Source: Photobacterium sp. DA100 (GTDB lineage Bacteria; Pseudomonadota; Gammaproteobacteria; Enterobacterales; Vibrionaceae). Taken from it: DNA of 64,000 nucleotides. The stretch covers positions 1,488,001-1,552,000 of the forward strand of contig NZ_CP119423.1 of assembly GCF_029223585.1 (NCBI RefSeq), given 5' to 3'. Under the pieces are notes generated by a model. It did no database searches. It had not been told where the DNA came from and was given only the letters and a program-made list of their open reading frames with translations. The first letter of the stretch is position 1, and every line of letters begins with the position of its first letter. Position numbers and translations under genes: made by a program. Below are positions 28,423-58,572 of this stretch, in pieces.

Positions 28423-29826
28423 ATGAATGAACTCGCGGTTGACCTTGCTAGATTCCAGTTTGCGTTCACAGTCTCGTTCCATATCATTTTTCCGGCTTTC
28501 ACGATTGGACTAGCCAGTTACTTGGCGGTGCTAGAAGGCTTGTACCTGAAAACCGGCAAGCACAAATACATCGAGCTCTACCAGTACTGGATAAAAATCT
28601 TCGCGATCAGTTTCGGTATGGGGGTAGTCAGCGGTATTGTCATGAGTTACCAGTTCGGCACCAACTGGAGTGTGTTCTCAGACAAAACCGGCCCGGTGCT
28701 TGGACCGCTGATGGGGTACGAGGTCTTTACGGCGTTTTTCCTCGAGGCCGGCTTCTTGGGGGTTATGCTGTTCGGCATGAACCGGGTGGGGAAAAAGCTG
28801 CATTTCATGTCGACGGTGATCGTCGCGATTGGAACCCTGATGTCGGCCTTTTGGATCCTATCAGTCAACAGCTGGATGCAAACTCCCGCCGGCTATTCAA
28901 TTAATGAACTCGGCCAGTTCATTCCAGATGACTGGATGGCGGTGGTGTTCAATCCGTCCTTTCCGTACCGGCTTGTCCACATGGTGCTTGCCGCCTTTCT
29001 GACCACCGCCTTTGTTGTCGGCGGGGTAGGGGCGTATCACTTGCTCAAATCGCAAAATAATCATTTAGCCCGAACCATGTTTTCCATGGCGCTGTGGATG
29101 GCGGCGATTGTTACACCGATCCAGATTGTGGTTGGGGATATGCATGGCCTCAATACTTTCGAGCACCAGCCAGCTAAAGTGGCTGCGATGGAAGGGCATT
29201 ATGAAACCCAGCAAGGTGCGCCATTGATATTGTTTGGTTTGCCCAATGAAGAAACCAAAGAAGTGGATTATAAAATTGCCATTCCACATTTAGGCAGTTT
29301 GATTTTGACCCATGAGTGGAACGGTGAGGTTAAAGGGCTGGATGCTTTCCCTGAAGATGAACACCCGCCAGTGCCTATCGTGTTCTGGAGCTTCCGGATC
29401 ATGGTCGGTATTGGTTTTTTGATGCTGGCTATTGGCCTCTACAGTTTGTGGCTGCGCAAGAAGGGAGAGCTTTATTACCATACTTTCTTCCACCGCTGCT
29501 GTGTGGCAATGGCACCAACCGGTTTTATAGCCATCCTGTGCGGCTGGATCACCACCGAAGTCGGGCGACAGCCTTTCACCGTCTACGGTTTGCTCAGAAC
29601 GGCTGATTCGATATCCCCGGTCAATGCCGCGGCCGTCAGTGTGTCCGTTGCAGCTTTCGTGATTGTGTATTTCTCGGTATTCGGTGCCGGCTTTTTCTAC
29701 TTGCTTCGCCTGATGCGCAAGCCTCCAACGAAATATGTCCTGCCACCAACCTCCAGCGTTCCGGACGTCGGCGATGAGAGTAAAGACAAACAGTCATTGG
29801 CAGCGTCGAACAAATTGACAATGTGA
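28423..29826 (+). CDS. cioA: Cyanide-insensitive bd-type quinol oxidase subunit I
   Basis: A 467-residue inner membrane subunit that holds the heme groups and oxidises quinol with oxygen. Heme ligands and conserved blocks include RFQFAFTVSFHIIFP (His-21 region), GDMHGLNTFEHQPAK (quinol site) and GWITTEVGRQPFTVYG. The region after the quinol site is short, which is the short Q-loop class typical of CioA rather than E. coli CydA (522 residues). Such oxidases resist cyanide and support respiration under low oxygen or toxic stress. It is the first gene of cioA-cioB-DUF2474. Confidence 0.93.
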   Translation: MNELAVDLARFQFAFTVSFHIIFPAFTIGLASYLAVLEGLYLKTGKHKYIELYQYWIKIFAISFGMGVVSGIVMSYQFGTNWSVFSDKTGPVLGPLMGYEVFTAFFLEAGFLGVMLFGMNRVGKKLHFMSTVIVAIGTLMSAFWILSVNSWMQTPAGYSINELGQFIPDDWMAVVFNPSFPYRLVHMVLAAFLTTAFVVGGVGAYHLLKSQNNHLARTMFSMALWMAAIVTPIQIVVGDMHGLNTFEHQPAKVAAMEGHYETQQGAPLILFGLPNEETKEVDYKIAIPHLGSLILTHEWNGEVKGLDAFPEDEHPPVPIVFWSFRIMVGIGFLMLAIGLYSLWLRKKGELYYHTFFHRCCVAMAPTGFIAILCGWITTEVGRQPFTVYGLLRTADSISPVNAAAVSVSVAAFVIVYFSVFGAGFFYLLRLMRKPPTKYVLPPTSSVPDVGDESKDKQSLAASNKLTM

Positions 29827-29836
29827 GGACCCGGTT

Positions 29837-30835
29837 ATGGATTACGCATTGATTTGGTACATTTTGATTGCAGTTGCCGTATTTGCCTATGTCATTCTCG
29901 ATGGGTTTGATTTGGGGATCGGCATCTTGTTTATTTCTGCCGAGACCACCAAAGAGCGGGATCTGATGATGAACAGTATCGCGCCGGTTTGGGATGGCAA
30001 CGAAACCTGGCTGGTACTGGGGGGCGGAGGGCTTTTCGCAGTCTTCCCCCTTGCTTATGCGGTGGCGATGCCGGCCTTATACGCGTTGATTATCATGATG
30101 CTGCTTGGCTTGATTTTCCGGGGGGTGGCGTTTGAGTATCGCTTCAGGACCAAGCGTGGCCAGTTTCTGTGGGACAGTTCGTTTTTCCTCGGCTCCCTGA
30201 TTGCGACCTTTACTCAGGGAATGATCCTCGGAACCCTGCTTCAGGGAGTCTCGGTCACCGATCGTGCATACAGCGGCGGCTGGTTTGATTGGTTTACCCC
30301 GTTCAGCGTCTACTGTGGTTTTGTCACTGTTGCAGCCTATACATTGCTCGGGGCGTGCTGGCTGCTCATCAAAATGCCTGAAGGCATGTACCAGCGGTTT
30401 TATGTGATTGCCAAGCGGTGTGCGCTGATAATGGTGGCAATGGTAGTCATACTCAGCCTGTGGCTGCCGCTCGGCAATGCAACCATCGCCGAACGCTGGT
30501 TCACCTTTCCGCAGGCACTGCTGTTCTTATTGATACCGGGCTGCTCTACCTATTTGGTATACCTATTGTTCAAAGATTTGATGGAGCATAAACCGGTGCA
30601 AGCGTACTTGGTGGTGCTTGGCCTATTTTTCTTGGCTTTTCTCGGTTTTGGCGTGAGTACTTATCCGTACATTGTCCCGCATGCGATCACCTATGCCGAG
30701 GCGGCCGCGCCTGATACCAGCCTGAAGTTCTTGCTCAGTGGTGCTGTTTTCCTACTGCCGTTGATTATTGCATACACGGCATACTCTTACTGGGTATTCC
30801 GGGGCAAACTGAAAGAGGATGAGGGATACCATTGA
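29837..30835 (+). CDS. cioB: Cyanide-insensitive bd-type quinol oxidase subunit II
   Basis: A 332-residue CydB/CioB-family membrane subunit with about eight to nine helices. The N-terminal block YVILDGFDLGIGIL and the following NSIAPVWDGNETWLVLGGGGLFAVFP are family hallmarks. It partners CioA, 10 bases upstream. Its TGA stop overlaps the ATG of a 35-codon gene by one base (TGATG), so the small gene is translationally coupled. Confidence 0.95.
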   Translation: MDYALIWYILIAVAVFAYVILDGFDLGIGILFISAETTKERDLMMNSIAPVWDGNETWLVLGGGGLFAVFPLAYAVAMPALYALIIMMLLGLIFRGVAFEYRFRTKRGQFLWDSSFFLGSLIATFTQGMILGTLLQGVSVTDRAYSGGWFDWFTPFSVYCGFVTVAAYTLLGACWLLIKMPEGMYQRFYVIAKRCALIMVAMVVILSLWLPLGNATIAERWFTFPQALLFLLIPGCSTYLVYLLFKDLMEHKPVQAYLVVLGLFFLAFLGFGVSTYPYIVPHAITYAEAAAPDTSLKFLLSGAVFLLPLIIAYTAYSYWVFRGKLKEDEGYH

Positions 30836-42216: not shown

Positions 42217-45200
42217 CTATTTACGCTTTCTGCGCAACAAGCCTAGGCCCATCAGAGACAGCAGGCCAAACCATCCCGTAGAGCCGCCAGAACCATCGTA
42301 GCTAGGCTCCGTCACTTTAGGCTCAAGTGAGTCGCGTTTAACCACTTCAACATCCATGGTCACCGTGGCATTGGTAATTGGTGTCGCAGTGGCCTTGGAG
42401 CTCATTGGGCGTACCAGGGACATGGTCATCGTGTACCGGCCCGTATCGATGCCGTTCACATCAAACGATACCGTATGCTTACCGTCTTCTGTCAGTGTTA
42501 CCTCCGGCAGGGTTACTTTGCTCATATCGGCAGGTGCCGGCGAAAATTGGATCCTTGCCACATCACCTGCTTTTGCCTCGCTGGTTGGAATAGGGTAAGC
42601 CACTTCCATACGGCCACTCTTTGTCGCCAGCAGTACTGGCTCGCCAGCGGTTTCACCATATCCGTAGCTTAGGGTGATAATGGCAGAGTCATGATCTGAA
42701 GAGCGGTAAGGATCTTGCGAATAGAAAGGGTTGTTACCCCAAGAGCTACTCTTGTATTTGCTGCTGTAATCAAACAGTGGTGATTCAGCGGCATTGATAT
42801 GCCAGTCCGTCGCATCGATAACACGTTTTGACAATGATGAAGTGATCAGGACATGGTCAAGTGAGCCGATTTCATCATTGTAGGAATAACTCCAAACAGC
42901 ATGTTTCTGGTGGGTCTCTTTTTCAATCTTGTCATTGATCATCTCAACGGCATTGATCAAGCCATATGATTTGGTGATTTCCGCGCCATTTTCGCCAAAC
43001 TGTGGCTTGTAGCCAATAAAGGTATCACGCGCAGCGCGAATGGTTTTTCCTTCAGGCAAGTATTTCGGGATCGTGGTCAATACCAGCATCGGATCTTCAT
43101 TGGCATAGGAGTTGAAGTCACCCATGACCACTTGATCGCCACCCATTTTGGCAAGTTGCTCACCTAATTCAACAGCAGCGGCAACCCGGAAGTTTTCACA
43201 TGAACCTTGGAAGTCATCATTTCTGACATCATCTTTTTCCGGGTTGAACTTATCCCATGATTGCCAGCCTTGCCAGTCTTCCCAACATGTTGAGCCTTTC
43301 GACTTCAGGTGGTTAACCGCAACAGTGAGTTTCTTGCCGGTATTGAGCAGGCGGAAGGTGGCAGCAACGGTATTGCGTTGGAAGTTCTTACCGTTTTCGC
43401 GGATCTCTTCATTTTCGTCGGTCACCGGCTGGCCATTTTCATAAGCAATGATCGGGGCTTCCTGGCGTGGCATTTCAATAATGCGCGATGATTCCAGTGC
43501 GACTTTGCTTGGGCGGTACAATAGCCCCGAGGTAATAGCATCACCACCTACAGAGTCGTACTCATCCAGCACCACATCGCCGTTTGAATCGAAGCCAACA
43601 AATACGTATTTGTTGTGGACTGATTTAGCTTCGTTGCGGTCTTGGTAGTTTTCGTAGTAGTACTTTTCGTTGACTGCGTTAACTAGTTCTGTGATGGCAC
43701 TGTAAGCCCCAAACCCATTGTTTTCAATTTCCATCAGGCCAATGATATCGGCATCGAGACCATAGATGGCCTCGACGATTTTGGCCTGCTGGCGTTCAAA
43801 ATCAATTTGGCTTTCGGCACCACGGTTATCACCGTGCTGGTTTTCCGCACCGCCGTATGGCGAGTTGAAATAGTTAAGGACATTCTGGGTCGCCAAGCGA
43901 ATGGCAAAGGCATCAGAGGTTGTTTCTTCGCTGATCTCCGGCTGCTCTTGGCGATCGGTATTGTGAATGAAGTTAGTGTTATCAACTTCTTTCATCGGGA
44001 TCAGACGGTAATCCCCGTAGGAGAAGTGGATTACGCCCTCTAGGCCAACAACGCTGTCGTTGATGCGGATGTAGTTGTTTTCCGGGTCCGATTTGAAATT
44101 CGGGTAGTAGGGGATTTCGCCATTGCCCGGCTTCTTGTCGCTGTCGACATATAAGCGGAAGTTGTCGTTCTCTGCGGCCTGATTTTTTGAGCCCTGACTG
44201 CCGGCAATGTTTTCTTGGTTCGGCTGCATGTTAGGGCGTTTATAAGCCAGTACCATGTTGTTGCGTCGGCTATCATAATCGTAGCTGAAGGTACGAGAAA
44301 CCCGCATGTCGTCTTTGACATTCGGGGTGTATAGATCGATGTCTTCTGGCAAGCGAACTAACATGCCTTCGTGTCGTTCCAGGGTCTTCTCAAAGTCATC
44401 GTCGTCGATTGCAATTGTGGTGAGATCAACCGCTGCAGGTACAGAGATAGCTTCAGAGCCCACTTCCCAGCCATCGGCAGCCAGTTGGGTCATGCCGTAA
44501 TTTTCTTGTACCTTGCCCGTCACCGTCACTGTGGCGCCAATCTGCGGCTGTTCATTAGTGGTGGCAATGAACAGGCCGTTTGAGGTTTGGCTGTCGCCAT
44601 CGTCGGCATAGAGGTAGAAGCCTTTCACTAACGAGTTGGCAACCGCCGAGACCACGCCGGTCACGCGGTAGCGATCAGCGGATTGGTATTCGCCGTCCTC
44701 AAGCAGTGGAGAGCGGAAACCGCTGCCTTGAATTTCACCAATGGTGGTATCGATTGCTTCGGCAGGTTTTTCTTCCAAGGTGGGATCACCAAGGCCGGAG
44801 AAGTCATCTTTGCCAAACTGAGACCAGTCTGCCTGTTCGTATGTTGGTGATTGCGACTCACTGCCTTGGTAACGGCGGAGGGTGCGATCAGCGCCCCAGA
44901 GGTTATCTTCTTCCGCAATGCCAATGATATCGAGTATGTTGTTGCGAGGGTCGGTTGTTTTGGCCAGTACTACAGCGTCGTCACCGTTAAAGCCCATGGC
45001 GTTGTAGCCAGATGTTGGTGAAAGAAGGTGGGAGGCGCCATTATTCGTAACTGCTGCAATGAGCTCTGCACTCGCTTTGCCATGGGCGAGAACAACCGCT
45101 TTTTTGGCCGGAATAGTCAAGCCTTTCAGGATTGATGCTTTATCTGCGCTGTAGATCATATTGATGTACTTACCGCTGTCGTAGTACAAGCCAACAGAAT

Positions 45201-45366
45201 CATCGAAGGTATAGTCGGTCTCTCCGGTATTTGTCAGTTCGATAGCCTTGTTATAGCTGCTACCTTCTACGTATTCAGAGATAATAATATCGTCAATGCC
45301 AGCGATGGCTGGAGCGGCGAGGGCAGCAGCAATTGCTGCCGAAACCAATGTTATTTTGTTTTTCAT
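42217..45366 (-). CDS. Extracellular endonuclease, ExeM type, with GlyGly-CTERM anchor
   Basis: A 1049-residue secreted DNase. In order: signal peptide (1-22), a lamin-tail-like domain (about 25-190; IIISEYVEGSSYNKAIEL), an OB-fold region (about 205-470), an endonuclease/exonuclease/phosphatase domain (about 490-870) and a C-terminal sorting tail. Active-site signs in the nuclease domain are LATQNVLNYF, DIIGLMEIEN, VAVNHLKSKGS, VMGDFNSY and SLDHVL / SSDHDSAI. The end (GGSTGWFGLLSLMGLGLLRRKRK) is a GlyGly-CTERM: glycines, a hydrophobic stretch and basic residues, processed by rhombosortase after type II secretion. It degrades extracellular DNA, important for nutrients and biofilm. It is 37 bases downstream of the porin gene on the same strand. 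Confidence 0.93.
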   Translation of the reverse strand: MKNKITLVSAAIAAALAAPAIAGIDDIIISEYVEGSSYNKAIELTNTGETDYTFDDSVGLYYDSGKYINMIYSADKASILKGLTIPAKKAVVLAHGKASAELIAAVTNNGASHLLSPTSGYNAMGFNGDDAVVLAKTTDPRNNILDIIGIAEEDNLWGADRTLRRYQGSESQSPTYEQADWSQFGKDDFSGLGDPTLEEKPAEAIDTTIGEIQGSGFRSPLLEDGEYQSADRYRVTGVVSAVANSLVKGFYLYADDGDSQTSNGLFIATTNEQPQIGATVTVTGKVQENYGMTQLAADGWEVGSEAISVPAAVDLTTIAIDDDDFEKTLERHEGMLVRLPEDIDLYTPNVKDDMRVSRTFSYDYDSRRNNMVLAYKRPNMQPNQENIAGSQGSKNQAAENDNFRLYVDSDKKPGNGEIPYYPNFKSDPENNYIRINDSVVGLEGVIHFSYGDYRLIPMKEVDNTNFIHNTDRQEQPEISEETTSDAFAIRLATQNVLNYFNSPYGGAENQHGDNRGAESQIDFERQQAKIVEAIYGLDADIIGLMEIENNGFGAYSAITELVNAVNEKYYYENYQDRNEAKSVHNKYVFVGFDSNGDVVLDEYDSVGGDAITSGLLYRPSKVALESSRIIEMPRQEAPIIAYENGQPVTDENEEIRENGKNFQRNTVAATFRLLNTGKKLTVAVNHLKSKGSTCWEDWQGWQSWDKFNPEKDDVRNDDFQGSCENFRVAAAVELGEQLAKMGGDQVVMGDFNSYANEDPMLVLTTIPKYLPEGKTIRAARDTFIGYKPQFGENGAEITKSYGLINAVEMINDKIEKETHQKHAVWSYSYNDEIGSLDHVLITSSLSKRVIDATDWHINAAESPLFDYSSKYKSSSWGNNPFYSQDPYRSSDHDSAIITLSYGYGETAGEPVLLATKSGRMEVAYPIPTSEAKAGDVARIQFSPAPADMSKVTLPEVTLTEDGKHTVSFDVNGIDTGRYTMTMSLVRPMSSKATATPITNATVTMDVEVVKRDSLEPKVTEPSYDGSGGSTGWFGLLSLMGLGLLRRKRK

Positions 45367-46881: not shown

Positions 46882-46957
46882 TGGTGGGCGATACCGGGCT
46901 CGAACCAGTGACCCCCTCCTTGTAAGGGAGGTGCTCTCCCAACTGAGCTAATCGCCC
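46882..46957 (-). tRNA. tRNA-Val (anticodon TAC)
   Basis: 76 bases including an encoded CCA. Acceptor GGGCGAT, D-arm TAGCTCAGTTGGGAGAGC, anticodon loop CTTACAA between CCTCC and GGAGG, T-arm GGTTCGAGCC. It is the last gene of the cluster and reads the GTA, GTG and probably GTT codons. Confidence 0.95.
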
Positions 46958-47004
46958 TAATAAACGCTTGGGAGCCTCAATGAGGTAGTGCGTTTATTGG
47001 AATT

Positions 47005-47081
47005 TGGTGGGTCCGGGCGAACTCGAATCGCCGACCCCTACCATGTCAAGGTAGTACTCTAACCAACTGAGCTACGGACCC
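47005..47081 (-). tRNA. tRNA-Val (anticodon GAC)
   Basis: 77 bases including encoded CCA. Acceptor GGGTCCG/CGGACCC, anticodon stem CTACC-GGTAG with loop TTGACAT, anticodon GAC. Sequence differs from the other five GAC genes mostly in the acceptor and T stem. Confidence 0.95.
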
Positions 47082-47115
47082 AAATTTGTACTTCTTATTT
47101 GGTTAAGTAAGAAGT

Positions 47116-47192
47116 TGGTACGACCGAGTGGACTCGAACCACCGACCCCCACCATGTCAAGGTGGTGCTCTAACCAGCTGAGCTACGGTCGT
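47116..47192 (-). tRNA. tRNA-Val (anticodon GAC), type A copy 1
   Basis: 77 bases with CCA. Acceptor ACGACCG/CGGTCGT, anticodon loop TTGACAT between CCACC and GGTGG. Same sequence as the genes at 47324-47400 and 47532-47608. Confidence 0.95.
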
Positions 47193-47217
47193 ACTGTATC
47201 TTCAATTAAATTGAAGA

Positions 47218-47294
47218 TGGTGCGTCTGAGTGGACTCGAACCACCGACCCCTACCATGTCAAGGTAGTACTCTAACCAGCTGAGCTACAGACGC
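47218..47294 (-). tRNA. tRNA-Val (anticodon GAC), type B copy 1
   Basis: 77 bases with CCA. Acceptor GCGTCTG/CAGACGC, anticodon stem CTACC-GGTAG, loop TTGACAT. Same sequence as the gene at 47426-47502. Confidence 0.95.
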
Positions 47295-47323
47295 AGATTG
47301 TGTTCTAGATTAAAGCTAGAAAT

Positions 47324-47400
47324 TGGTACGACCGAGTGGACTCGAACCACCGACCCCCACCATGTCAAGGTGGTGCTCTAACCAGCTGAGCTACGGTCGT
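47324..47400 (-). tRNA. tRNA-Val (anticodon GAC), type A copy 2
   Basis: Identical in sequence to the tRNA at 47116-47192, exactly 208 bases away. Confidence 0.95.
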
Positions 47401-47425
47401 ACTGTATCTTCAATCAAATTGAAGA

Positions 47426-47502
47426 TGGTGCGTCTGAGTGGACTCGAACCACCGACCCCTACCATGTCAAGGTAGTACTCTAACCAGCTGAGCTACAGAC
47501 GC
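47426..47502 (-). tRNA. tRNA-Val (anticodon GAC), type B copy 2
   Basis: Identical in sequence to the tRNA at 47218-47294, exactly 208 bases away. Confidence 0.95.
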
Positions 47503-47531
47503 AAATTGTGTTCTAGATTAAAGCTAGAAGT

Positions 47532-47608
47532 TGGTACGACCGAGTGGACTCGAACCACCGACCCCCACCATGTCAAGGTGGTGCTCTAACCAGCTGAGCT
47601 ACGGTCGT
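47532..47608 (-). tRNA. tRNA-Val (anticodon GAC), type A copy 3 (first gene of the operon)
   Basis: Identical to the other type A copies, 208 bases from copy 2. It is nearest the promoter at 47635-47663. Confidence 0.95.
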
Positions 47609-47894: not shown

Positions 47895-48683
47895 TTAATT
47901 GACTGTGGCTTTTTCCGTTTGCTCCAGCGTGGCAAAAAGATTGCTAAATGACTGGGTGAGTTTGTGGTTCGGCAGCAGGTGGATTAGCGGCTGTTGGTGA
48001 TAATGCGATTCTTTCATCTTGACCGAAAGCGGCAGGTAAGGCTCAAGGATCGGCAAGCCGATATCTTTTAAGTCTTCGATGATTTTAGCTGGGAACTTGG
48101 CCTGGGCATTGAACATATTGACAATCACCCCTTCCACTTCAAGCTTGGGGTTATGATCCTCGCGCAGCTCTGCCACATTGTTGAGCAAGGTCATCAATGC
48201 CTGTTGGGAGAAGCTATCGCAGTCAAACGGGATCAGCAGTTTATGAGCACCAATAAGGGCGGCCTTGCTGAAGAAATTCAAATTCGGCGGGGTATCGATG
48301 TATATACGGTCGTACTCTTTGTCCAGCTCATCCAGAGCGTCGCGCAGTTTATAGATTTTATAACGGCGCTCGAGCTCAGACTCGATTTTTTCCAGTTTCG
48401 GGCTGGCGGGGATAATGTCTAGGTTGTCGAATGGAGTCGCTTGTGGGTAGGACTTGATCGGCGTCGATACCGAGAACCAGCCCACGGTTTGGTTGAGTAG
48501 CTCAGCAATATTTTTGCTGTTGTCGACATTGATATCGAAGCCGAGATAATGGCTACTGTTACCTTGGACATCTAAGTCGATGAGCAGTGTCTTGTACCCT
48601 TGGGCTGCACTGATTGCAGCAAGGTTGGCAGTAATACTTGATTTACCAACCCCGCCTTTTTGGTTGAAGACGACACGACGCAT
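47895..48683 (-). CDS. ParA-family ATPase without a ParB neighbour
   Basis: A 262-residue deviant Walker ATPase. The start MRRVVFNQKGGVGKSSITANLAA holds KGGVGKSS (residues 9-16); LLIDLDVQGNSSHYLG and YDRIYIDTPPNLNF are the other ParA/MinD motifs. Such proteins position DNA, chemoreceptor arrays or other cargo. No parB, centromere-like repeat, or cargo gene lies beside it. It is not the main chromosome ParA by context. Cargo unknown. Confidence 0.85.
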   Translation of the reverse strand: MRRVVFNQKGGVGKSSITANLAAISAAQGYKTLLIDLDVQGNSSHYLGFDINVDNSKNIAELLNQTVGWFSVSTPIKSYPQATPFDNLDIIPASPKLEKIESELERRYKIYKLRDALDELDKEYDRIYIDTPPNLNFFSKAALIGAHKLLIPFDCDSFSQQALMTLLNNVAELREDHNPKLEVEGVIVNMFNAQAKFPAKIIEDLKDIGLPILEPYLPLSVKMKESHYHQQPLIHLLPNHKLTQSFSNLFATLEQTEKATVN

Positions 48684-48798
48684 GAAAATCCTTGTTATGC
48701 TACTAAATAGATATGTTCACGGTAGCGCACTGATATACGAGTCGCAATCCGGGTACCGAAAAAATGTTAGCTATTTAACTTTTTGGTGAGTATCTACT

Positions 48799-49386
48799 TC
48801 ATTCGGCAGCGGCTTCCGTCGCTGCTGGCTTGGGCAGCGCATGGGCGATACCGGCATGGCAGTCGATGCATGTTTGCCCTCGTTCCGCCATAGTCTGGTG
48901 GCGGCGGCTGGCATTGCGTGACTGGTTTTCGAAATCCATCTTGTTGACATCATGACAATAACGGCACTGCTTGGAGTCATTGGCCTTGTACTCGTCGGTC
49001 ACTTTCTGTGCCAGCCGCGGGCGGTGTTCTGTTTCGAAGTTCTCCAGCGTGATGGTGCCGCGCATCATGTGGAAGATATCGCCAGTCGCGCCAATTTTCA
49101 GCGCCATTTTGGGAACGAATTCACGGGGGACGTGGCAGTCGCTGCACGTAGCGGCGACCACCCCCTTGGTGTTTTTAAAATGAATCGAGGCTTGGTATTC
49201 CTCGACGATGGTATCCATGCCGATATGACAGCCATAACAGAACTGGTTCCTGTTGGTATAGTCCATCGTCCAGTGAAAGGCAGCCATTGCACCTATACCC
49301 AGAACGAAAGCAATGAACGCCCCAACAGGGATGCCCCATAGCAATTTACGCCAGAGTGAGCTGCTGGGTTTGTTGGAATCTGTCAC
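48799..49386 (-). CDS. cymA: Tetraheme quinol dehydrogenase of the NapC/NirT family (CymA type)
   Basis: Takes electrons from menaquinol or ubiquinol and passes them to periplasmic cytochromes. The 195-residue protein has one N-terminal helix (about 15-38) and a periplasmic domain with four CxxCH heme motifs (CYGCH, CSDCH, CRYCH, CIDCH). Length and layout match Shewanella CymA (187 residues). The start is GTG with AGGAG upstream. It lies 16 bases after pdsA on the same strand and diverges from mtrCAB, as in the Vibrio electron transfer locus. Confidence 0.88.
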   Translation of the reverse strand: MTDSNKPSSSLWRKLLWGIPVGAFIAFVLGIGAMAAFHWTMDYTNRNQFCYGCHIGMDTIVEEYQASIHFKNTKGVVAATCSDCHVPREFVPKMALKIGATGDIFHMMRGTITLENFETEHRPRLAQKVTDEYKANDSKQCRYCHDVNKMDFENQSRNASRRHQTMAERGQTCIDCHAGIAHALPKPAATEAAAE

Positions 49387-49402
49387 GGCCTGTCACTCCT
49401 GC

Positions 49403-50014
49403 TTATTGCTGGCTGGCATAAAACTCAACCAGCGCTGAAATATCATCAGCGCTCAGGGCTTTGATTGCATCGACCATACCTTTGTCACCTTGGCGCTGGC
49501 CACCCTTGTACTCATTCATAGTGCGCAGGATGTAACCTTTTTGCTGGCCTGCGAGGATAGAGGCCTCGTCGAATGGGTCGCTGCCACCTTTCGAATGGCA
49601 TTTGTCACAGCTGGCCATATGTACCTCTTTGCCCGCAGCCGCTTTGTTGCCATCGAACGTTTGTTTGGCTTTGACAAAAGGTTTGGATGAGTAATATTTG
49701 GCAAGATCGTTGATTTGATCCTCGCTCAGCCCTTCGACAACGGTTTTCATATTGCCACTTTTGCTGGTATCCCCAAGGACATGGTTAACGGTTTTGGCCG
49801 GGCGGCCATCGAGGTATTGCAGCATCTGATCGCTGAGGTTCCATTCGGCAATCCCGGCAATAGAGGGGATGTTGGTGTTTTTACTGACCCCGTTAGTACC
49901 GTGGCAAGCATCGCAACTTTTCACTAGCTCATCACTGACCGCAGCGGCATGGCTGCAATAGCCACCGATAATAATGAGGCAGGTTAGTGCAAAGGGTTGT
50001 TTCAACACTTTCAT
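49403..50014 (-). CDS. pdsA: Periplasmic diheme cytochrome c (PdsA type)
   Basis: A 203-residue cytochrome with a signal peptide (MKVLKQPFALTCLIIIGGYC, then SHAAA) and two class I heme domains, each with one CxxCH (CDACH and CDKCH) and a methionine later in each half. The duplicated layout is like cytochrome c4. In Aeromonas hydrophila and Vibrio natriegens a diheme shuttle called PdsA moves electrons to MtrCAB; placement with cymA opposite mtrCAB supports the same role. AAGGAGT before the ATG at 50014 fixes the start. Confidence 0.8.
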   Translation of the reverse strand: MKVLKQPFALTCLIIIGGYCSHAAAVSDELVKSCDACHGTNGVSKNTNIPSIAGIAEWNLSDQMLQYLDGRPAKTVNHVLGDTSKSGNMKTVVEGLSEDQINDLAKYYSSKPFVKAKQTFDGNKAAAGKEVHMASCDKCHSKGGSDPFDEASILAGQQKGYILRTMNEYKGGQRQGDKGMVDAIKALSADDISALVEFYASQQ

Positions 50015-50369
50015 GATGTACTCCTTCGAACGCGACACTGTCACGATGGTTTTTTGTCATCAAAGATAGGACAGAAGCTCAAATCCCGCCAATGACTACA
50101 GAGAGTGAGAGTAAGGGGGAAGCTGAGAAAGCTGTTGCGATTAATGGATTGTTCTTAAAATTGAGTCAGGGTTATTTGTAATTTTTATCAGACACTTGCT
50201 TCTATTTTCGGGGGATTAACCCTGATGTCATCAAATTCTCAGCCAAACACACAGCGATAAATAGCTATATTTTTTATTTGCTTGCCAAGCCTTGCGAGAA
50301 GTTATGGACCCAGGCTATCTCCCATGGAGTGCAAGCTAACCCTTCAATCCGCTAGTGTGAGTTAATCTG
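50015..50369. other. Divergent control region of the electron transfer locus
   Basis: 355 bases between pdsA (-) and mtrC (+). No credible gene. It must carry both promoters. No clean FNR (TTGAT-N4-ATCAA) or CRP (TGTGA-N6-TCACA) palindrome was found by eye, so the regulator is unknown. Confidence 0.5.
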
Positions 50370-52505
50370 ATGATTGTTATAAGATTTATATTAGCTTTTA
50401 TTTGTATCTGCCTGATTCAAGCTTGTGATAACCAAGGAAGCGATCAGAATTCTCCACCGCCGGATCCGAATGATATATCCATCGATGCCCAGACACCGGT
50501 TCTGAATGAGAACGGCTTGCTGTCGGTTGAGTTTACGGCAACAGACGGTACGGGAGCACCATTTGAACTCGACCCTGAAAGCGGTTTGAGTTTCGCCGTC
50601 CTCAAGGTAAGCGAGGGGCGTAGCACCGGTGACAATAGCTTTTGGCAAACCTTTATCTTTGGGAGCCAGTCTCCAGCAGCCGATGCCAAGCCAAACTTTG
50701 AATCCAGCGGGGTCTTTGAGGTGCTGGCGGCAGGCAGTTATCGCTATACCTTCTCGGTAGACGTTACCCAAGTGGTTGACCCCGCCCAACTGTCGGCAGA
50801 ACCAGCACCGGCAGAAGCGGCAGTGATTGAGTGGGAGCCGGATGTTCTTCACCGCTTTGCCATTCGCTATGGCGATGCGCTCTCGGATATCCCTGTCATT
50901 AACTATACCCTGGACTGGGTTCCTTCCGGTGGCTCGGCACCGCTGTCGCGGGATATCCTGGATAATTCAAGCTGTACCACGTGCCACATGGGCGAGGCTC
51001 CTTTTCATGGCACTCGCGCGCCGGCAAACCGGGTAGAGCCGCAAATCTGTTCAGCCTGCCACAACGACAGTAACCCCAACTCAACCCGTCGCTCTTTAGC
51101 GGTCATTGTCCATGACAAGCACGGTAATGTGTTTGAGATCCCGGATGAGGGGGGCGAAGAGGCTGAGCCAGAGCTGGTGGGCTCGCCGTATCCGCAGGAT
51201 GCCAGGAATTGCGATACCTGCCACAAGGATGTCTCCGATACAACGGCCGATGCCGATAACTGGTTCAATCATCCAACTGCTGAAGCCTGTGGGGCCTGCC
51301 ATACGGTGCGCAACTCACATTCAAGTGCTTTCCCATCCAATGACCGCTGCGAAGGCTGCCACGGAGTTGATGCCGGTGGAAGGTCGGTGCAATCTGTCCA
51401 TGGAGGCCGGCTGGCGGCGATGCAGGCAGGAAGGGATACCTTGGAATTGGCGATTAACTCGGCCCGCTACAGCGACCCGGATTTCGAAATAGAGATCACG
51501 CTGACGCGCAACGGGGAGGGCGTCGCGTCATTTGCAGATATCGCCCCGTTTATCCGCCACGGTTCTGCCTACTTGTTGGTTAACTGGAATAACGGCAACG
51601 GCCTTGAGATCAGCTATACCGCCAATCGCGTCCGGATCAATATGACCGAAGAATGTAGCGCGATGGGGGATGGACAGTTTCTCTGTAAGAAGGCCTTCCC
51701 GAACGGTGAAACAGCGCTTAAACCTACCGCTGGCTCGGTATTGGTTGTGACAAATGCTGAAATGCCGCTGTGTACCGACAGAAAAGCCGAGCAACCGGCG
51801 CTGATCGCTTGTGATGACAGTTCGCTCGAGAATGATAGGGACACCGAGTACCTGCTAGCGGCCAATGCGGTCTGGGCCGCTTTTGATATCGGTGGCGGCG
51901 CCGTCAATGAAAAAACCGCGATTGGCGCAGATTTAGCATCGTGCAACGGTTGCCACAAGGATCTGACCGTACATCTCTATGGTCCGGCGGGACAAGCGCA
52001 TTCAGCCAAGGACTTCGAGCAGTGTGCCAGCTGTCATAACGCCACACGAGCGGCATTCTACCCAGGGATCCCCGGCGATCTGAAATACCATGTCCATTCA
52101 TTCCACGGATTTGGCTCGCAGCGCAGCGGGGAGTCTAGTTATCCCGGCAATCTCGCTAACTGCGAAGCGTGCCATACCGCCTCGCAGTACAACCTGCCGA
52201 ATCAGGCAAACATCCGGCCTTCGGTTGCTAGCGTGGCGGCCGGTGATGCGAGAGAAAACAAGTTCTTCAGCCCTGCCTTGGTGGTATGCGGTAGTTGTCA
52301 CCTGGCATCCAATTTGGGGGATGTCAATCCCGATAGTCCGGCTGAAGGCGATGGCGCGATTTCGCATATGCTCAGGAACGGCGCCGTGTTTGCCGCAGAC
52401 AGTGCCGCTGATGCAACCGGCAGTGAGCAGTGTGCGACCTGTCACTCGGTCGGGCAGGATGTCGGTGTCGACGTTGTCCATGATGTCTACCGGTTCCGCC
52501 AGTAA
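50370..52505 (+). CDS. mtrC: Decaheme surface lipoprotein cytochrome, OmcA/MtrC family
   Basis: The terminal reductase of the electron transfer conduit. A 711-residue lipoprotein with lipobox LIQAC (Cys-19), then an N-terminal beta domain (about 30-200). Ten CxxCH heme motifs occur as two groups of five: CTTCH, CSACH, CDTCH, CGACH, CEGCH (about 203-330), and CNGCH, CASCH, CEACH, CGSCH, CATCH (about 528-695). The beta-rich middle (about 350-510) separates the groups, as in Shewanella MtrC (671 residues). It should sit on the outer face of the outer membrane and reduce metals, flavins or electrodes. mtrA follows after 37 bases. Confidence 0.9.
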   Translation: MIVIRFILAFICICLIQACDNQGSDQNSPPPDPNDISIDAQTPVLNENGLLSVEFTATDGTGAPFELDPESGLSFAVLKVSEGRSTGDNSFWQTFIFGSQSPAADAKPNFESSGVFEVLAAGSYRYTFSVDVTQVVDPAQLSAEPAPAEAAVIEWEPDVLHRFAIRYGDALSDIPVINYTLDWVPSGGSAPLSRDILDNSSCTTCHMGEAPFHGTRAPANRVEPQICSACHNDSNPNSTRRSLAVIVHDKHGNVFEIPDEGGEEAEPELVGSPYPQDARNCDTCHKDVSDTTADADNWFNHPTAEACGACHTVRNSHSSAFPSNDRCEGCHGVDAGGRSVQSVHGGRLAAMQAGRDTLELAINSARYSDPDFEIEITLTRNGEGVASFADIAPFIRHGSAYLLVNWNNGNGLEISYTANRVRINMTEECSAMGDGQFLCKKAFPNGETALKPTAGSVLVVTNAEMPLCTDRKAEQPALIACDDSSLENDRDTEYLLAANAVWAAFDIGGGAVNEKTAIGADLASCNGCHKDLTVHLYGPAGQAHSAKDFEQCASCHNATRAAFYPGIPGDLKYHVHSFHGFGSQRSGESSYPGNLANCEACHTASQYNLPNQANIRPSVASVAAGDARENKFFSPALVVCGSCHLASNLGDVNPDSPAEGDGAISHMLRNGAVFAADSAADATGSEQCATCHSVGQDVGVDVVHDVYRFRQ

Positions 52506-52542
52506 ACCAGATTCGCTGAGAACGCCTTGGAAGGATTATAAA

Positions 52543-53505
52543 ATGAATAAGAGAAAGTGGTGGTCGTGGGCAGCAAGCGGGATCCTGATCATGCTGGTCA
52601 GCATGATGGCTTTTGCCGACACTGAAAGCCGAGATCCCCGTGAAGCCGTTGAGGCTGAGCTGGATAAAAAATTCCAGGATGGACGCTATTCACGCGATGG
52701 CACTGAGACGTGTCTGCGTTGCCATGACAAGGATTCAGAGATCCCGGCGACGGGGATCTTCGACAATGTTCACGGCCGCCTGGGGGTTTCCCATGGCCCG
52801 ATGAGCGATCGCCAGTGCGAAGCTTGCCATGGCCCGCTGGGAAACCACCACCGTAACCCGAGGGGGGATAATGCGCGTGAGCCCATGATCACCTTTGGTG
52901 ACGATTCCCCCGTTCCTGCCAGCAAGCAAAACAGCGTTTGCCTGTCTTGCCACCAAGGCAGTGCTCAGAGGAACTGGCACTCGAGCGTGCATGCGTTCGA
53001 AGATGTTAGTTGCTCGAGCTGCCATAAGCTGCATCAGGCTGAAGACCCCATGTTTAACCAAGCAACACAGGTAGAAACCTGTACCGGCTGCCATAGCCAG
53101 GTTAAAGCTCAGCTGCACAAGCGTTCCAGCCATCCGATACGGGATGGGGTCATGAGCTGTTCGAGCTGCCATGAGCCGCACCAGTCAGTCAACGAAGCCA
53201 GTTTGAAGCAGGTGGATATCAACGAAAATTGCTATCAATGCCATGCGGAAAAACGCGGCCCCTTCCTGTGGGAGCATGAGCCGGTGTCTGAGGACTGCAG
53301 TTATTGCCATAACCCGCACGGCTCCATCAATAGTGCGATGTTGGACAAACGCATGCCTCAACTGTGTCAGGACTGCCATCGAGTGCCGCACGCTCAAGTG
53401 GACATTCCAGAAGGAGACCTGCGTGTGCGTGGCGGCAGCTGCATGAACTGCCATAGTCAGGTACACGGTACCAATCATCCTCGCGGCTTAACGTTGAGAA
53501 AATGA
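52543..53505 (+). CDS. mtrA: Periplasmic decaheme cytochrome MtrA (DmsE family)
   Basis: A 320-residue protein with signal peptide (about 1-26, ending MMAFA) and ten CxxCH motifs: CLRCH, CEACH, CLSCH, CSSCH, CTGCH, CSSCH, CYQCH, CSYCH, CQDCH and CMNCH. Shewanella MtrA has 333 residues and also ten hemes. It spans the MtrB barrel and connects the periplasm to MtrC. The ATG at 52543 follows AAGGAT; the frame is open upstream into mtrC but that part is not real protein. mtrB begins 10 bases later. Confidence 0.92.
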   Translation: MNKRKWWSWAASGILIMLVSMMAFADTESRDPREAVEAELDKKFQDGRYSRDGTETCLRCHDKDSEIPATGIFDNVHGRLGVSHGPMSDRQCEACHGPLGNHHRNPRGDNAREPMITFGDDSPVPASKQNSVCLSCHQGSAQRNWHSSVHAFEDVSCSSCHKLHQAEDPMFNQATQVETCTGCHSQVKAQLHKRSSHPIRDGVMSCSSCHEPHQSVNEASLKQVDINENCYQCHAEKRGPFLWEHEPVSEDCSYCHNPHGSINSAMLDKRMPQLCQDCHRVPHAQVDIPEGDLRVRGGSCMNCHSQVHGTNHPRGLTLRK

Positions 53506-53515
53506 GAGCAGAGCA

Positions 53516-55519
53516 ATGAAGATTGTATATCCAATTTATTGGCTGACTGCATCGATGACATTTTGTGGTTATGCCGAAGAAGAGAGCGTGCCCGCTGACA
53601 ATCCGTACCAGGATTACTCACTCAAAGCGGCGAAAGAGGTCGATACATCCGGCTGGGAGTGTAAAGCCTGCTCAAGTGATGGGCAATGGCAGGGAAGTGC
53701 CGCATTGGGCGCGGGCTATTCAGATAATGGTGGCTCGACCCGGTTCAACAATTGGGTGCCGACCCACAGTGATGTAGGGGCCGTGGGAACACTCAATGCC
53801 GATTTAGGGCAAGTCAATGATGACGGGGAATACACGCGGTTTGAGGTCGAAGACCTTGGCTTGAAGCGGTTTCGGATCGGCACCGAGCTGGGTGATTACG
53901 ACGGTGTGCGGGCAAGCCTTTACTACAGCCAGTCACCGTATTACTGGAACGATGATAGCCTTTCTGCATACCGTGGTGATGGCACGACATTGACCGAAGG
54001 GGATCTCAGGACTTTCGACAAGGAATCGATTCGGGAAAAAATCCAGATCGGGTTGAAGTATACGCCGCCAAGCCCCTGGCAGCCCTATGCGGACATGACG
54101 TTCGAGCAAAAAGAGGGGACATATTCCTTCTATGACAACCGGGTGCCTGGCGTGGGCAGTGTTCCCGGATATATTCAAAAACCGCTCTCGCATGAAACCC
54201 TCAATACTGCTGTTGGGGTGTCCTATCTTGAGGAAGGCTGGCTTATCGATGCGGCATACCGGGCCTCGGTCTTTCGTAATGACAACCAGGCCTTGTATTT
54301 TGGCCCTGCCAGCGATCCCTTTGCCGACTCCCGGGCCTACGAGCCCGATAATGAATTTCACCAGGTTGCTGTCTCGGGAAATTACAGGATGGACAGGCAG
54401 ACGATTGATGGCCGGGTACTTTGGCAGGAGTCGACATCTGACGGTGGGTTGAATGTCTTTCCGGGTTCACCGAACCAAAAGTCCAAGTTTGACGGTAAGG
54501 TCAATACGGTTCAGGTTGATGCGGGTTACAGCAATCGGCTGACGAGTAAAGCTGCGCTGAAGGTGCGGGCAGATTACCGGGACCGGGATGATCGCTCGGA
54601 TAAGGATGCTGTCATAGGCCAGACAAGGCCAACAACCGACAGAACCCGAAGCGGTCTCGAAGTGGTGGGGGATTACCGCTATAACCGGTCGTGGAAAATT
54701 CAGGGCGGGTTCGACTATAGGTATCGTTCGCGGGAAGAGGCGGACAGGAAGCGCACCAATGAAAGCACGCTGTATCTTTCAACACGCTACAAACCGGTCG
54801 ATGACTGGAGTGCCGGTGCCAAAGTCTCATGGCAAGACAGAGACGGCTCGAGCTGGAGGAACGACAGTGCCAATAGCCCGAATTTGAGGCAGTATTATTT
54901 GGCCGATCGGGAAAGGCTGGAACTCCGTGGGGATATTCGCTATCAGCTCAATGATTCAACCCAATTGTCTGCCGCCGCTTGGTACGGCGATGAGGATTAT
55001 CCCACCCCGGATATAGGCCGCAGCTCGGGTAAAGATTATGGCTATGATGCCACCGTTGATTACCAGCATGATGAAAATACCGTGGGCTATGCCTACCTGA
55101 ATTATCAGCAAATTGAATCCAAGCAGCAGAGCGCCAACAGCAATTCCCCTGATTTTTCCCGATATACTTCAGAATTGACCGATGAAGCTGTGGTTGTCGG
55201 AGTTGGAGCCAACCGGAACAATCTGATGGATAAGCGGCTGGATATCGGGCTTGATTACAGTTATAGCTATGGCAAGGGAAAGACATCCACCACGTCAAAT
55301 GCCGACTTTGATTATCCGGATAATCGCTCCCAGGGGCATCGTTTGGAGGTCAATGGTACCTATCGTGTCGATGACAGACAGAGTATCAAGCTCAATATCA
55401 GGTATGAAAACTATGATGAGGATGATTATCTGTTTGCCGCAGACGAGGCTAGCCTAGGCCGTGTCAATCAAGACTATGATGGCTACTTCGGTATGGTGTC
55501 GTGGGAATATAAATACTGA
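53516..55519 (+). CDS. mtrB: Outer membrane beta-barrel MtrB (MtrB/PioB family)
   Basis: A 667-residue barrel that sheathes MtrA in the outer membrane. A signal peptide (about 1-20) is followed by a periplasmic start with a CxxC (Cys-49 and Cys-52, WECKAC), a feature of MtrB that is needed for stability in Shewanella. The rest alternates as beta strands with many aromatic residues and ends GYFGMVSWEYKY. Shewanella MtrB has 697 residues. It completes the operon mtrC-mtrA-mtrB. Confidence 0.9.
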   Translation: MKIVYPIYWLTASMTFCGYAEEESVPADNPYQDYSLKAAKEVDTSGWECKACSSDGQWQGSAALGAGYSDNGGSTRFNNWVPTHSDVGAVGTLNADLGQVNDDGEYTRFEVEDLGLKRFRIGTELGDYDGVRASLYYSQSPYYWNDDSLSAYRGDGTTLTEGDLRTFDKESIREKIQIGLKYTPPSPWQPYADMTFEQKEGTYSFYDNRVPGVGSVPGYIQKPLSHETLNTAVGVSYLEEGWLIDAAYRASVFRNDNQALYFGPASDPFADSRAYEPDNEFHQVAVSGNYRMDRQTIDGRVLWQESTSDGGLNVFPGSPNQKSKFDGKVNTVQVDAGYSNRLTSKAALKVRADYRDRDDRSDKDAVIGQTRPTTDRTRSGLEVVGDYRYNRSWKIQGGFDYRYRSREEADRKRTNESTLYLSTRYKPVDDWSAGAKVSWQDRDGSSWRNDSANSPNLRQYYLADRERLELRGDIRYQLNDSTQLSAAAWYGDEDYPTPDIGRSSGKDYGYDATVDYQHDENTVGYAYLNYQQIESKQQSANSNSPDFSRYTSELTDEAVVVGVGANRNNLMDKRLDIGLDYSYSYGKGKTSTTSNADFDYPDNRSQGHRLEVNGTYRVDDRQSIKLNIRYENYDEDDYLFAADEASLGRVNQDYDGYFGMVSWEYKY

Positions 55520-55531
55520 TAGCAGGTAAAC

Positions 55532-55561
55532 CAGCAGGTTTGAGGGGGCTCAAACCTGCTG
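55532..55561. terminator. Hairpin between convergent mtrB and a DUF5062-like gene
   Basis: CAGCAGGTTTGAG (55532-55544) pairs perfectly with CTCAAACCTGCTG (55549-55561), loop of four G. No T-run follows on either side. It fills the 48 bases between the two genes and is the probable end of mtrCAB transcription. Confidence 0.65.
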
Positions 55562-55567
55562 CAAGTG

Positions 55568-55828
55568 TTACTGGAGCAGTTCGTGATCCGGCGGTAATAG
55601 CCGGGTAATCCACAGGATGAGTCTGTGTTTCATATTCGGTCCGTCTTCCTTGTCTTCAGGAAGCGGGGTAATTTGCTTGAATTGAACCAGCAAGCGGTAA
55701 ATACATTCGACCTTATCCTTCGACGAGACTGATTTGTCTAAATCATCAAACCCTTGCTTCTTAGCAAAGGCCATACCTAGCTCTAGCGCTTTTTTTAAGA
55801 GTTTTGCATCGTTTTTGTTCTTCTTCAT
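55568..55828 (-). CDS. Small conserved protein (DUF5062-like)
   Basis: An 86-residue, mostly helical, charged protein without signal peptide or known motif. It reads like the DUF5062 family of Vibrionaceae (lysine-rich start, KDKVECIYRLLVQFK, ending MKHRLILWITRLLPPDHELL); the match is from memory. Function unknown. It is transcribed toward mtrB but not part of that operon. Confidence 0.65.
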   Translation of the reverse strand: MKKNKNDAKLLKKALELGMAFAKKQGFDDLDKSVSSKDKVECIYRLLVQFKQITPLPEDKEDGPNMKHRLILWITRLLPPDHELLQ

Positions 55829-57068: not shown

Positions 57069-57079
57069 CTGTCTCTTGA

Positions 57080-58477
57080 TCACAAGTTTTGATGGTCAAG
57101 AGACATTGCTAGCTCATAGCCTTCAAGGATGGTTTGTAACTTGAACCATCCTTCCCATAGGGCTTTCACTGATGCCTTTCCTGTTCGTTTGGTATCTTTC
57201 CATCCCCCCATTCTTGCAAGGTTTTCATAAGCCCAAGATATATTGGGTGGCGACTCGGGAATGGTTTTCTTCTCCATTTTCAACCACAACAACTTCCAAG
57301 CTTGTGTGCTCAATACCTTTTCACAGTTATGATCAGCCTGAGAACACGTTTTTCTCATAAAGCGTAACTGTAATAAACGTGTGGCTATAAATGCTAAAAT
57401 GACGCTTATCCGCTCTAAATTATCTCGACTTTGCATTCTGAGCTCTTCAACTCCTGTCCCCTCACTTTTCCAGACCTTATGGTAGTCCTCAATTAACCAG
57501 CGGTGTTCGTAATAGCTGACAATGCGTTCCGCATCTTCTGCTTTTGTGACCCTTTCAGATGTCAGTAAGTGCCAAGCGAGCTTGTCTTTTCTATCGCCTT
57601 GTTCAACACAACTGACATAATACATAGCGGTATCGGGCTGAGATGATTTATTGGCTGGTGCTTTCAGTGTGACTTTTGCGTACTTGATATCAAGGACGAC
57701 ATCTCTCGCTTTACGTCCCCCTTTTTGAGGTATATGCAAGACTTTAGGCGTCGCATTTTGTAATTGCTCAGCATAGTCATAGAGTTTGTTGTCATGCTCT
57801 TTGATACATCGGCTCTGCATTGAACGCACAACAAATCGTTGATTATTTTGCGCTTTGTACGCCAGATATTCGTAGATATCAGCCTCACGGTCACATACTG
57901 AAATCACTTTATCTATATTAGTGCCTAATCGTTCAACCATGTTCTGAGAGGCCTTTTCCCACTTATAGCTCTCTTTTTCTTTGTAAGGCCGCGAAGCATG
58001 TTGATGTCGCTGGCCTCGTTTCAATATGTCACGGGTCCACATTTGCTGCTCAATTAAGCCAACAATATCGTGGTTTTGTGGAGCAAAAAGCAAAATCGAA
58101 TGTGCCAAGATGGCTCGATTATTATCTCCCTGATTAATATGCCCTAGTTCACCTTTAACCGATTGATGCCTAAAGACTAAAGCGGTTGTATCCTCAAGGG
58201 CGAGTAAAATGGGATGGGTTGCGGCTCTTTGAGCAGTTACTTGAAACCCCGCCTCAGCGATATCTTTTGGTTCGATATGGTCATTACGAATAAACCGGTA
58301 TGCCCCTTCCATATCAGCAGGTGAGAGGGATAATTTTGACACAGCAACTCCTGGCTGTTGAGCAAGTGAAGCCGCTAAAGAGACTAAACGCTGAGTTCGT
58401 CTAGGGTCGTTGAGGTTAGCTTGCCCAAATTGCATATCTGCCCATTGTTCATGAGTATTTTTATCCATCTTAATCAT
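57080..58477 (-). CDS. IS50-like transposase
   Basis: A 465-residue DDE transposase closely similar in layout to Tn5 Tnp (476 residues). The catalytic residues are visible: the Asp in LALEDTTAL (near 97), the Asp in VISVCDREADIYEYL (near 186) and the Glu in WLIEDYHKVWK (near 325, YREK-type motif). The N-terminal DNA-binding part (DPRRTQRLVSLAASLAQQPG, GAYRFIRN) and C-terminal NLERISVILAFIATRLLQLR block are present. The reading frame is full length with no stop. The start is 58477 or the next ATG at 58468. Confidence 0.95.
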   Translation of the reverse strand: MIKMDKNTHEQWADMQFGQANLNDPRRTQRLVSLAASLAQQPGVAVSKLSLSPADMEGAYRFIRNDHIEPKDIAEAGFQVTAQRAATHPILLALEDTTALVFRHQSVKGELGHINQGDNNRAILAHSILLFAPQNHDIVGLIEQQMWTRDILKRGQRHQHASRPYKEKESYKWEKASQNMVERLGTNIDKVISVCDREADIYEYLAYKAQNNQRFVVRSMQSRCIKEHDNKLYDYAEQLQNATPKVLHIPQKGGRKARDVVLDIKYAKVTLKAPANKSSQPDTAMYYVSCVEQGDRKDKLAWHLLTSERVTKAEDAERIVSYYEHRWLIEDYHKVWKSEGTGVEELRMQSRDNLERISVILAFIATRLLQLRFMRKTCSQADHNCEKVLSTQAWKLLWLKMEKKTIPESPPNISWAYENLARMGGWKDTKRTGKASVKALWEGWFKLQTILEGYELAMSLDHQNL

Positions 58478-58531
58478 CCATTTAATAGCTATTAAATGAT
58501 CAGATCACAACTTCGAAAGTGAGTTCAAAAA

Positions 58532-58557
58532 AAATCCCCGAGCATGCTCGGGGATTT
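58532..58557. repeat. 26-base perfect palindrome just inside the IS right end
   Basis: ATCCCCGAGC and GCTCGGGGAT are the central arms, flanked by A and T bases; the last four bases fall in the 19-base IS end. In IS50 and IS10 similar structures near the outside end limit transposase expression from incoming transcripts; the same role is inferred. Confidence 0.7.
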
Positions 58558-58572
58558 GTGCATAAGAGACAG

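Follow-up and report, generated by a model that had tools for sequence, protein, structure and literature searches.

A complete Mtr-type electron transfer locus in Photobacterium sp. DA100, one of two sets in its genome and probably inserted as a cassette

The window analyzed here, a stretch of 64,000 nucleotides, comes from contig C1 in the two-contig, 6.01 Mb genome of Photobacterium sp. DA100. The genes of one locus in it very probably specify an entire Mtr-type chain for extracellular electron transfer; this locus is one of two such sets in the genome and was likely inserted as a cassette. The preliminary description had claimed a complete five-gene locus at 48799–55519, and all five open reading frames were found in those places, each of them intact. 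The tetraheme and diheme genes on the reverse strand diverge from mtrC, mtrA and mtrB on the forward strand (Table 1). Comparison with the second copy indicates that the ATG of pdsA is most likely its start, and not the GTG to which its frame remains open; the open frame of mtrA starts within mtrC, and the same comparison places the gene's own start at ATG 52543.

Table 1. Features of the mtr locus, in window positions
Feature	Coordinates	Strand	Details
Approximate cassette, probably inserted (five genes and their ends), from parA-like gene to DUF5062 gene	48755..55557		From empty-site alignments
cymA-like gene, NapC/NirT-family tetraheme membrane cytochrome	48799..49386	-	195 aa, GTG start; PF03264 197.3 bits; 4 CxxCH
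pdsA, periplasmic diheme cytochrome c	49403..50014	-	203 aa from ATG 50014; frame open to GTG 50044
Intergenic region between divergent pdsA-cymA and mtrCAB transcripts	50015..50369		From gene coordinates
mtrC, OmcA/MtrC-family decaheme lipoprotein	50370..52505	+	711 aa; lipobox LIQA-C; TIGR03507 408.8 bits (cut-off 209.3); 10 CxxCH
mtrA, periplasmic decaheme cytochrome	52543..53505	+	320 aa; TIGR03508 322.7 bits (cut-off 192.2)
mtrB, outer-membrane beta-barrel, N-terminal CKAC	53516..55519	+	667 aa; PF11854 488.7 bits; TIGR03509 513.1 bits (cut-off 240.05)

The heme-binding motifs and protein families agree with this assignment. The CxxCH counts given beforehand, 4, 2, 10 and 10 for the tetraheme protein, the diheme protein, MtrC and MtrA, were reproduced, and they are not a product of chance because shuffled versions of the four cytochromes never exceed 2 motifs (2000 shuffles per protein; mean counts 0.004–0.09; maxima 1, 1, 1 and 2). 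The barrel, described as containing a CxxC, has one such motif (CKAC) near the N terminus of MtrB. According to Pfam and NCBIfam, the five proteins belong to the NapC/NirT, PdsA, OmcA/MtrC, DmsE-family decaheme and MtrB/PioB families; a decaheme MtrA and an MtrB/PioB barrel are adjacent, with TIGR03508 and TIGR03509 above their cut-offs, and the same gene cluster includes the OmcA/MtrC-family decaheme lipoprotein, with TIGR03507 above its own. In 6r2q, taken here as the MtrCAB complex of Shewanella baltica, chain A aligns with almost the full length of MtrA (E = 3e-97, residues 13–322 of the translated stretch 52534–53505) and chain B aligns with MtrB (E = 1e-53); chain A is displayed as cystathionine beta-synthase, apparently through mislabeling. 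By sequence, the profile of MtrC matches chain C of this entry and also MtrF, UndA, OmcA and other MtrC chains. A structure model of MtrC reached middling confidence (pLDDT 62.7, pTM 0.52), and a Foldseek search with it gave 990 matches at E ≤ 10, where all 16 matches at E ≤ 0.001 are OmcA, MtrC, UndA or MtrF structures. Families, gene order, heme counts and the MtrC fold thus support the CymA-PdsA/MtrCAB identity that had been proposed.

For the tetraheme protein, 'CymA' is the name of a role, because the protein falls outside the rows of a NapC/NirT tree that we took to be Shewanella CymA. Its own clade (14 rows, support 100/100) consists of mtr-linked proteins, among them those of Vibrio and of one genome of family f25, presumably Aeromonas; this tree carries long-branch warnings. 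The diheme cytochrome beside mtrCAB has PdsA as its best model, and NF049874 PdsA is the sole NCBIfam model found at E ≤ 1e-20. Its score of 259.9 bits is under the model's cut-off of 330, a threshold that all seven tested Photobacterium and Vibrio PdsA proteins fall below and all three tested f25 PdsA proteins surpass.

We read 28 loci, and 15 of them, including both loci of the window genome, have the same five genes as single open frames in the same divergent order. The CymA/PdsA/MtrCAB genes of Vibrio natriegens are the same kind of set, and its MtrC is 39–40% identical to the window MtrC over the whole length, although the window protein is shorter (711 versus 754 and 770 aa). The Vibrio loci read share the divergent order. 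Three loci of the genus Vibrio have broken genes, through decay or sequencing error: L084 (G298) has MtrC split between frames, L087 (G186) has MtrB, MtrC and CymA split and a short PdsA, and L088 (G296) has PdsA, MtrA and MtrB split between frames. When the window locus is compared with the Vibrio and Shewanella Mtr sets, as had been proposed, the MtrCAB families match, whereas the tetraheme protein differs from the putative Shewanella CymA. The architecture of MtrA, MtrB and MtrC is like that of Shewanella MtrCAB/OmcA; in the Shewanella-like family f6, which we take to be Shewanella and kin, MtrB is 26–32% identical to the window MtrB and the tetraheme protein belongs to a different clade. 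The Aeromonas NetBCD/PdsA/MtrCAB loci (f25) have PdsA and MtrCAB in common with the window locus, but three of four f25 loci have, beside pdsA and in the place of the tetraheme protein, a five-heme MtrA-like protein, and the one tested is NrfB-like. CymA/PdsA/MtrCAB-type loci have been published for Vibrio and Aeromonas, and the window locus has PdsA instead of the FccA/CctA of Shewanella (PMC8805035).

The genome carries two unlike complete Mtr sets. The second set (copy 2) is located at C2:1503143-1510265, where mtrB2, mtrA2, mtrC2, pdsA2 and cymA2 repeat the divergent arrangement of the window set (copy 1); protein identities between the copies are 72% for CymA, 60% for PdsA, 48% for MtrC, 68% for MtrA and 58% for MtrB. 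Copy 2 lies on the smaller contig and occurs in a third species (G024) as well as in Photobacterium gaetbulicola (G012). In all three genomes it is found between an HPPD-like gene and a PTS gene (flanks named by eye), with a further gene block separating mtrB2 from the PTS gene in the window genome. Between the window genome and G012, the dS of copy 2 is 0.35 for mtrC (L019 10137–12329 versus L074) and 0.31 for pdsA, far above the 0.03 for mtrB, which suggests recombination of the surface cytochrome gene. The Mtr system and the two copies of P. gaetbulicola are already published: Baker et al. (2022) report two mtrCAB copies in P. gaetbulicola Gung47, they suggest an internal duplication for Shewanella insulae and describe Photobacterium as 'a similar phenomenon', and the passages on the two copies give no separate origin (PMC8805035). 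The window genome has both mtr loci, as P. gaetbulicola does, and it is a separate species representative with an insertion sequence downstream of the locus.

We used phylogenetic tests to compare the descent of the two copies. In a concatenated five-protein tree with f25 as the outgroup, copy 1 branches outside both the Vibrio loci and copy 2 (support 100/99), and an approximately unbiased (AU) test rejects holding the five Photobacterium rows as one clade (p = 3e-6). The AU tests covered 20 of the 28 loci (PdsA had 19 rows and CymA 16), the eight others being six f6 loci, the broken G296 and the f1g5 locus; gene sets excluded frames with <72% query coverage or <60 bits and MtrA frames with <9 hemes, and kept a maximum of two MtrC rows per f6 locus. 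Gene by gene, one clade is rejected for MtrC (p = 7e-12) and MtrA (p = 0.044), but not for MtrB (p = 0.20) or PdsA (p = 0.22). When three long or damaged rows (f25_542, f25_533 and Vib186) are also removed, MtrC still rejects it (p = 5e-4), while MtrA with MtrB (p = 0.080) and the four genes MtrA, MtrB, PdsA and CymA together (p = 0.136) do not. Several trees carry long-branch warnings (treekit). Separate origin therefore rests mainly on MtrC, because the other four genes do not reject one clade without it, and a mixed gene history, or faster change in MtrC1, is possible.

The two sets may alternatively have arisen by duplication within Photobacterium, followed by drift that was fastest in MtrC1. 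The genes that do not reject one clade are consistent with this explanation, as is the comparison in Baker et al. (PMC8805035). Beyond its own copy-1 orthologue, MtrB1 is closest to the MtrB2 of the same genus (57–58%, versus 51% for the best match outside the genus); the rows of both copies come together in the CymA tree, weakly (59.9), and they share a six-row PdsA group with one Vibrio row (support 93). The rejections for MtrC, for MtrA and for the five proteins jointly argue against it, MtrC2 shares up to 55% identity with Vibrio MtrC but 48% with MtrC1, and G024 has copy 2 together with an empty copy 1 site. We consider duplication a real but clearly minority prospect and favor the reading that copy 1 was likely inserted as a cassette.

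The distribution of the locus and the state of its site in relatives point to such an insertion. In the genus, 3 of 52 genomes have an MtrB above the Pfam cut-off and three more have weak matches; in a protein search, 16 of 329 family genomes and 37 of 394 order genomes had MtrB relatives. MtrC as the query of a contig scan gave a single weak locus, from a Bacteroidetes record. Copy 1 is present in two of the 52 genus genomes, the window genome (G000) and P. gaetbulicola, and its site is empty in 14 others. Across the 38 genus genomes that have both flanking genes at the thresholds used, the distance between parA and DUF3080 is 7278 bp in the two carriers and 425–483 bp in 14 other genomes; it is 604 and 1101 bp in two more, and in the remaining 20 the genes are far apart or on different contigs. 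In blastn comparisons with three empty-site relatives, the alignment ends at 48683 and resumes at 55558, with weak left-flank similarity to about 48752 (by eye), and the inserted part consists of the five genes and their ends. The simplest explanation of the empty sites is that a five-gene cassette would have been inserted between the parA-like gene and the DUF5062-DUF3080 pair in an ancestor of the window species and P. gaetbulicola. The cassette has no convincing terminal repeats and no sign of foreign base composition (GC3 of 55–65% for the five genes, versus a mean of 59.9 and sd of 5.7 for 24 other long window ORFs).

Several other features were found around the site and elsewhere in the window. 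The DUF5062 gene (55568–55828, reverse strand, 86 aa) lies between mtrB and DUF3080, and the same stretch stands between parA and DUF3080 in the aligned relatives that have no mtr genes. An array of seven tRNA-Val genes (46882–47608, reverse strand; one TAC and six GAC anticodons) adjoins the parA-like gene. An IS4/Tn5-like insertion sequence at 57069–58572 (transposase 57080–58477) has a 9-bp target duplication, ACCAACGGC (ends by eye), and extends over the start listed for the DUF3080 ORF. We rejected the idea that this IS4-family element brought in the cassette; it is a later insertion with its own duplication and is absent from G012. The window also encodes a cytochrome bd-type oxidase pair (28423–30835, forward strand), whose subunit I is far under the cut-offs of the two matching NCBIfam subunit I models, and an ExeM/NucH-type extracellular nuclease (42217–45366, reverse strand, 1049 aa).

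Between the window genome and G012, four copy 1 genes have nucleotide identities of 98.6–99.2%, and pdsA has 97.7%. Their dS values are 0.03–0.09, compared with 0.07 and 0.02 for two flanking genes, and dN/dS is 0.07–0.09 for all five genes, from 4–23 synonymous and 1–6 nonsynonymous changes per gene. All five genes look to be under purifying selection. Because dS resembles that of the flanks and dN/dS is low, though based on few changes, the cassette was probably present in the common ancestor of the two species and kept by selection. A decayed or silent copy 1, a spare without function beside an active second set, is thus very unlikely: the redundancy of two complete sets and a nearby insertion sequence would fit with it, but every copy 1 frame is open, the dN/dS ratios are low, and the insertion sequence lies beyond the locus and is lacking in G012.

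A functional copy 1 would be expected to operate as an electron conduit from the quinone pool to the cell surface. The tetraheme membrane protein would accept electrons from menaquinol, and the diheme PdsA-type protein may ferry them across the periplasm, as in published work on Vibrio and Aeromonas. Judging from structural homologues, MtrA within the MtrB barrel would conduct the electrons through the outer membrane, and surface MtrC would deliver them to external acceptors, for example Fe(III), Mn(IV), humics or electrodes. The analysis lends no support to the preliminary idea that the length of MtrC bears on its acceptor range. Genes for MenD and for two CcmF_C-family proteins are present in the genome, which makes a quinone supply and heme attachment plausible. 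The refuting case named in the preliminary description, a DmsEF conduit for DMSO respiration with DmsAB lost or located elsewhere, can be set aside as highly improbable: MtrA does score best against an NCBIfam model called 'DmsE family decaheme', but TIGR03508 presumably covers MtrA-type proteins as well, a full-length MtrC is present where a DmsEF-DmsAB locus would have none, MtrA aligns with 6r2q chain A over almost its entire length, and the scanned neighbors of the locus include no molybdopterin reductase and no DmsAB.

The sorting signal of MtrC qualifies its predicted surface location. The lipobox cysteine, C19, is invariant in 21 aligned sequences, and the window protein has Asp at position +2 and Asn at +3. 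The lipobox could be read in 16 Vibrionaceae rows of this group (Vib261 by eye; Vib296 and four f25 rows have no lipobox in the trimmed sequence). In these the +2 residue is Asp in two, both of them copy 1, Asn in five and Gly in nine, and it is Gly in all 11 database relatives; among the rows read, Asp at +2 is a feature of copy 1 and not of Vibrio. In Escherichia coli, Asp at +2 combined with certain +3 residues holds a lipoprotein in the inner membrane (PMC9595528). If this rule applies here, the surface display of the window MtrC would fail, and we treat the residue as a warning sign for its predicted location. As a control, a strict filter applied to 40 genome stretches of 20 kb and the window returned just 13 lipoprotein candidates, two of them with Asp at +2: the window MtrC and a doubtful 83-aa frame. 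This sample is too small for a verdict on the rule. In the window's divergent intergenic region, no clear FNR or CRP site was found (the best consensus matches have two mismatches); the intergenic region of copy 2 has one FNR-like match with one mismatch.

Within the family, Mtr loci have a sparse and patchy distribution, and this genome has two unlike complete sets, one of them at a site that is empty in relatives. It is conceivable, though we would not expect it on present evidence, that the two conduits differ in descent and are specialized rather than redundant. The smaller contig would then carry a Vibrio-like set, and the larger one a cassette from a lineage that diverged before all sampled Vibrio mtr loci, its MtrC having a distinct sorting signal and perhaps a distinct acceptor. 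The genome lends itself to the question of whether Mtr conduits can coexist and divide labor, and its window locus would illustrate clearly how five genes can move together as a single cassette.
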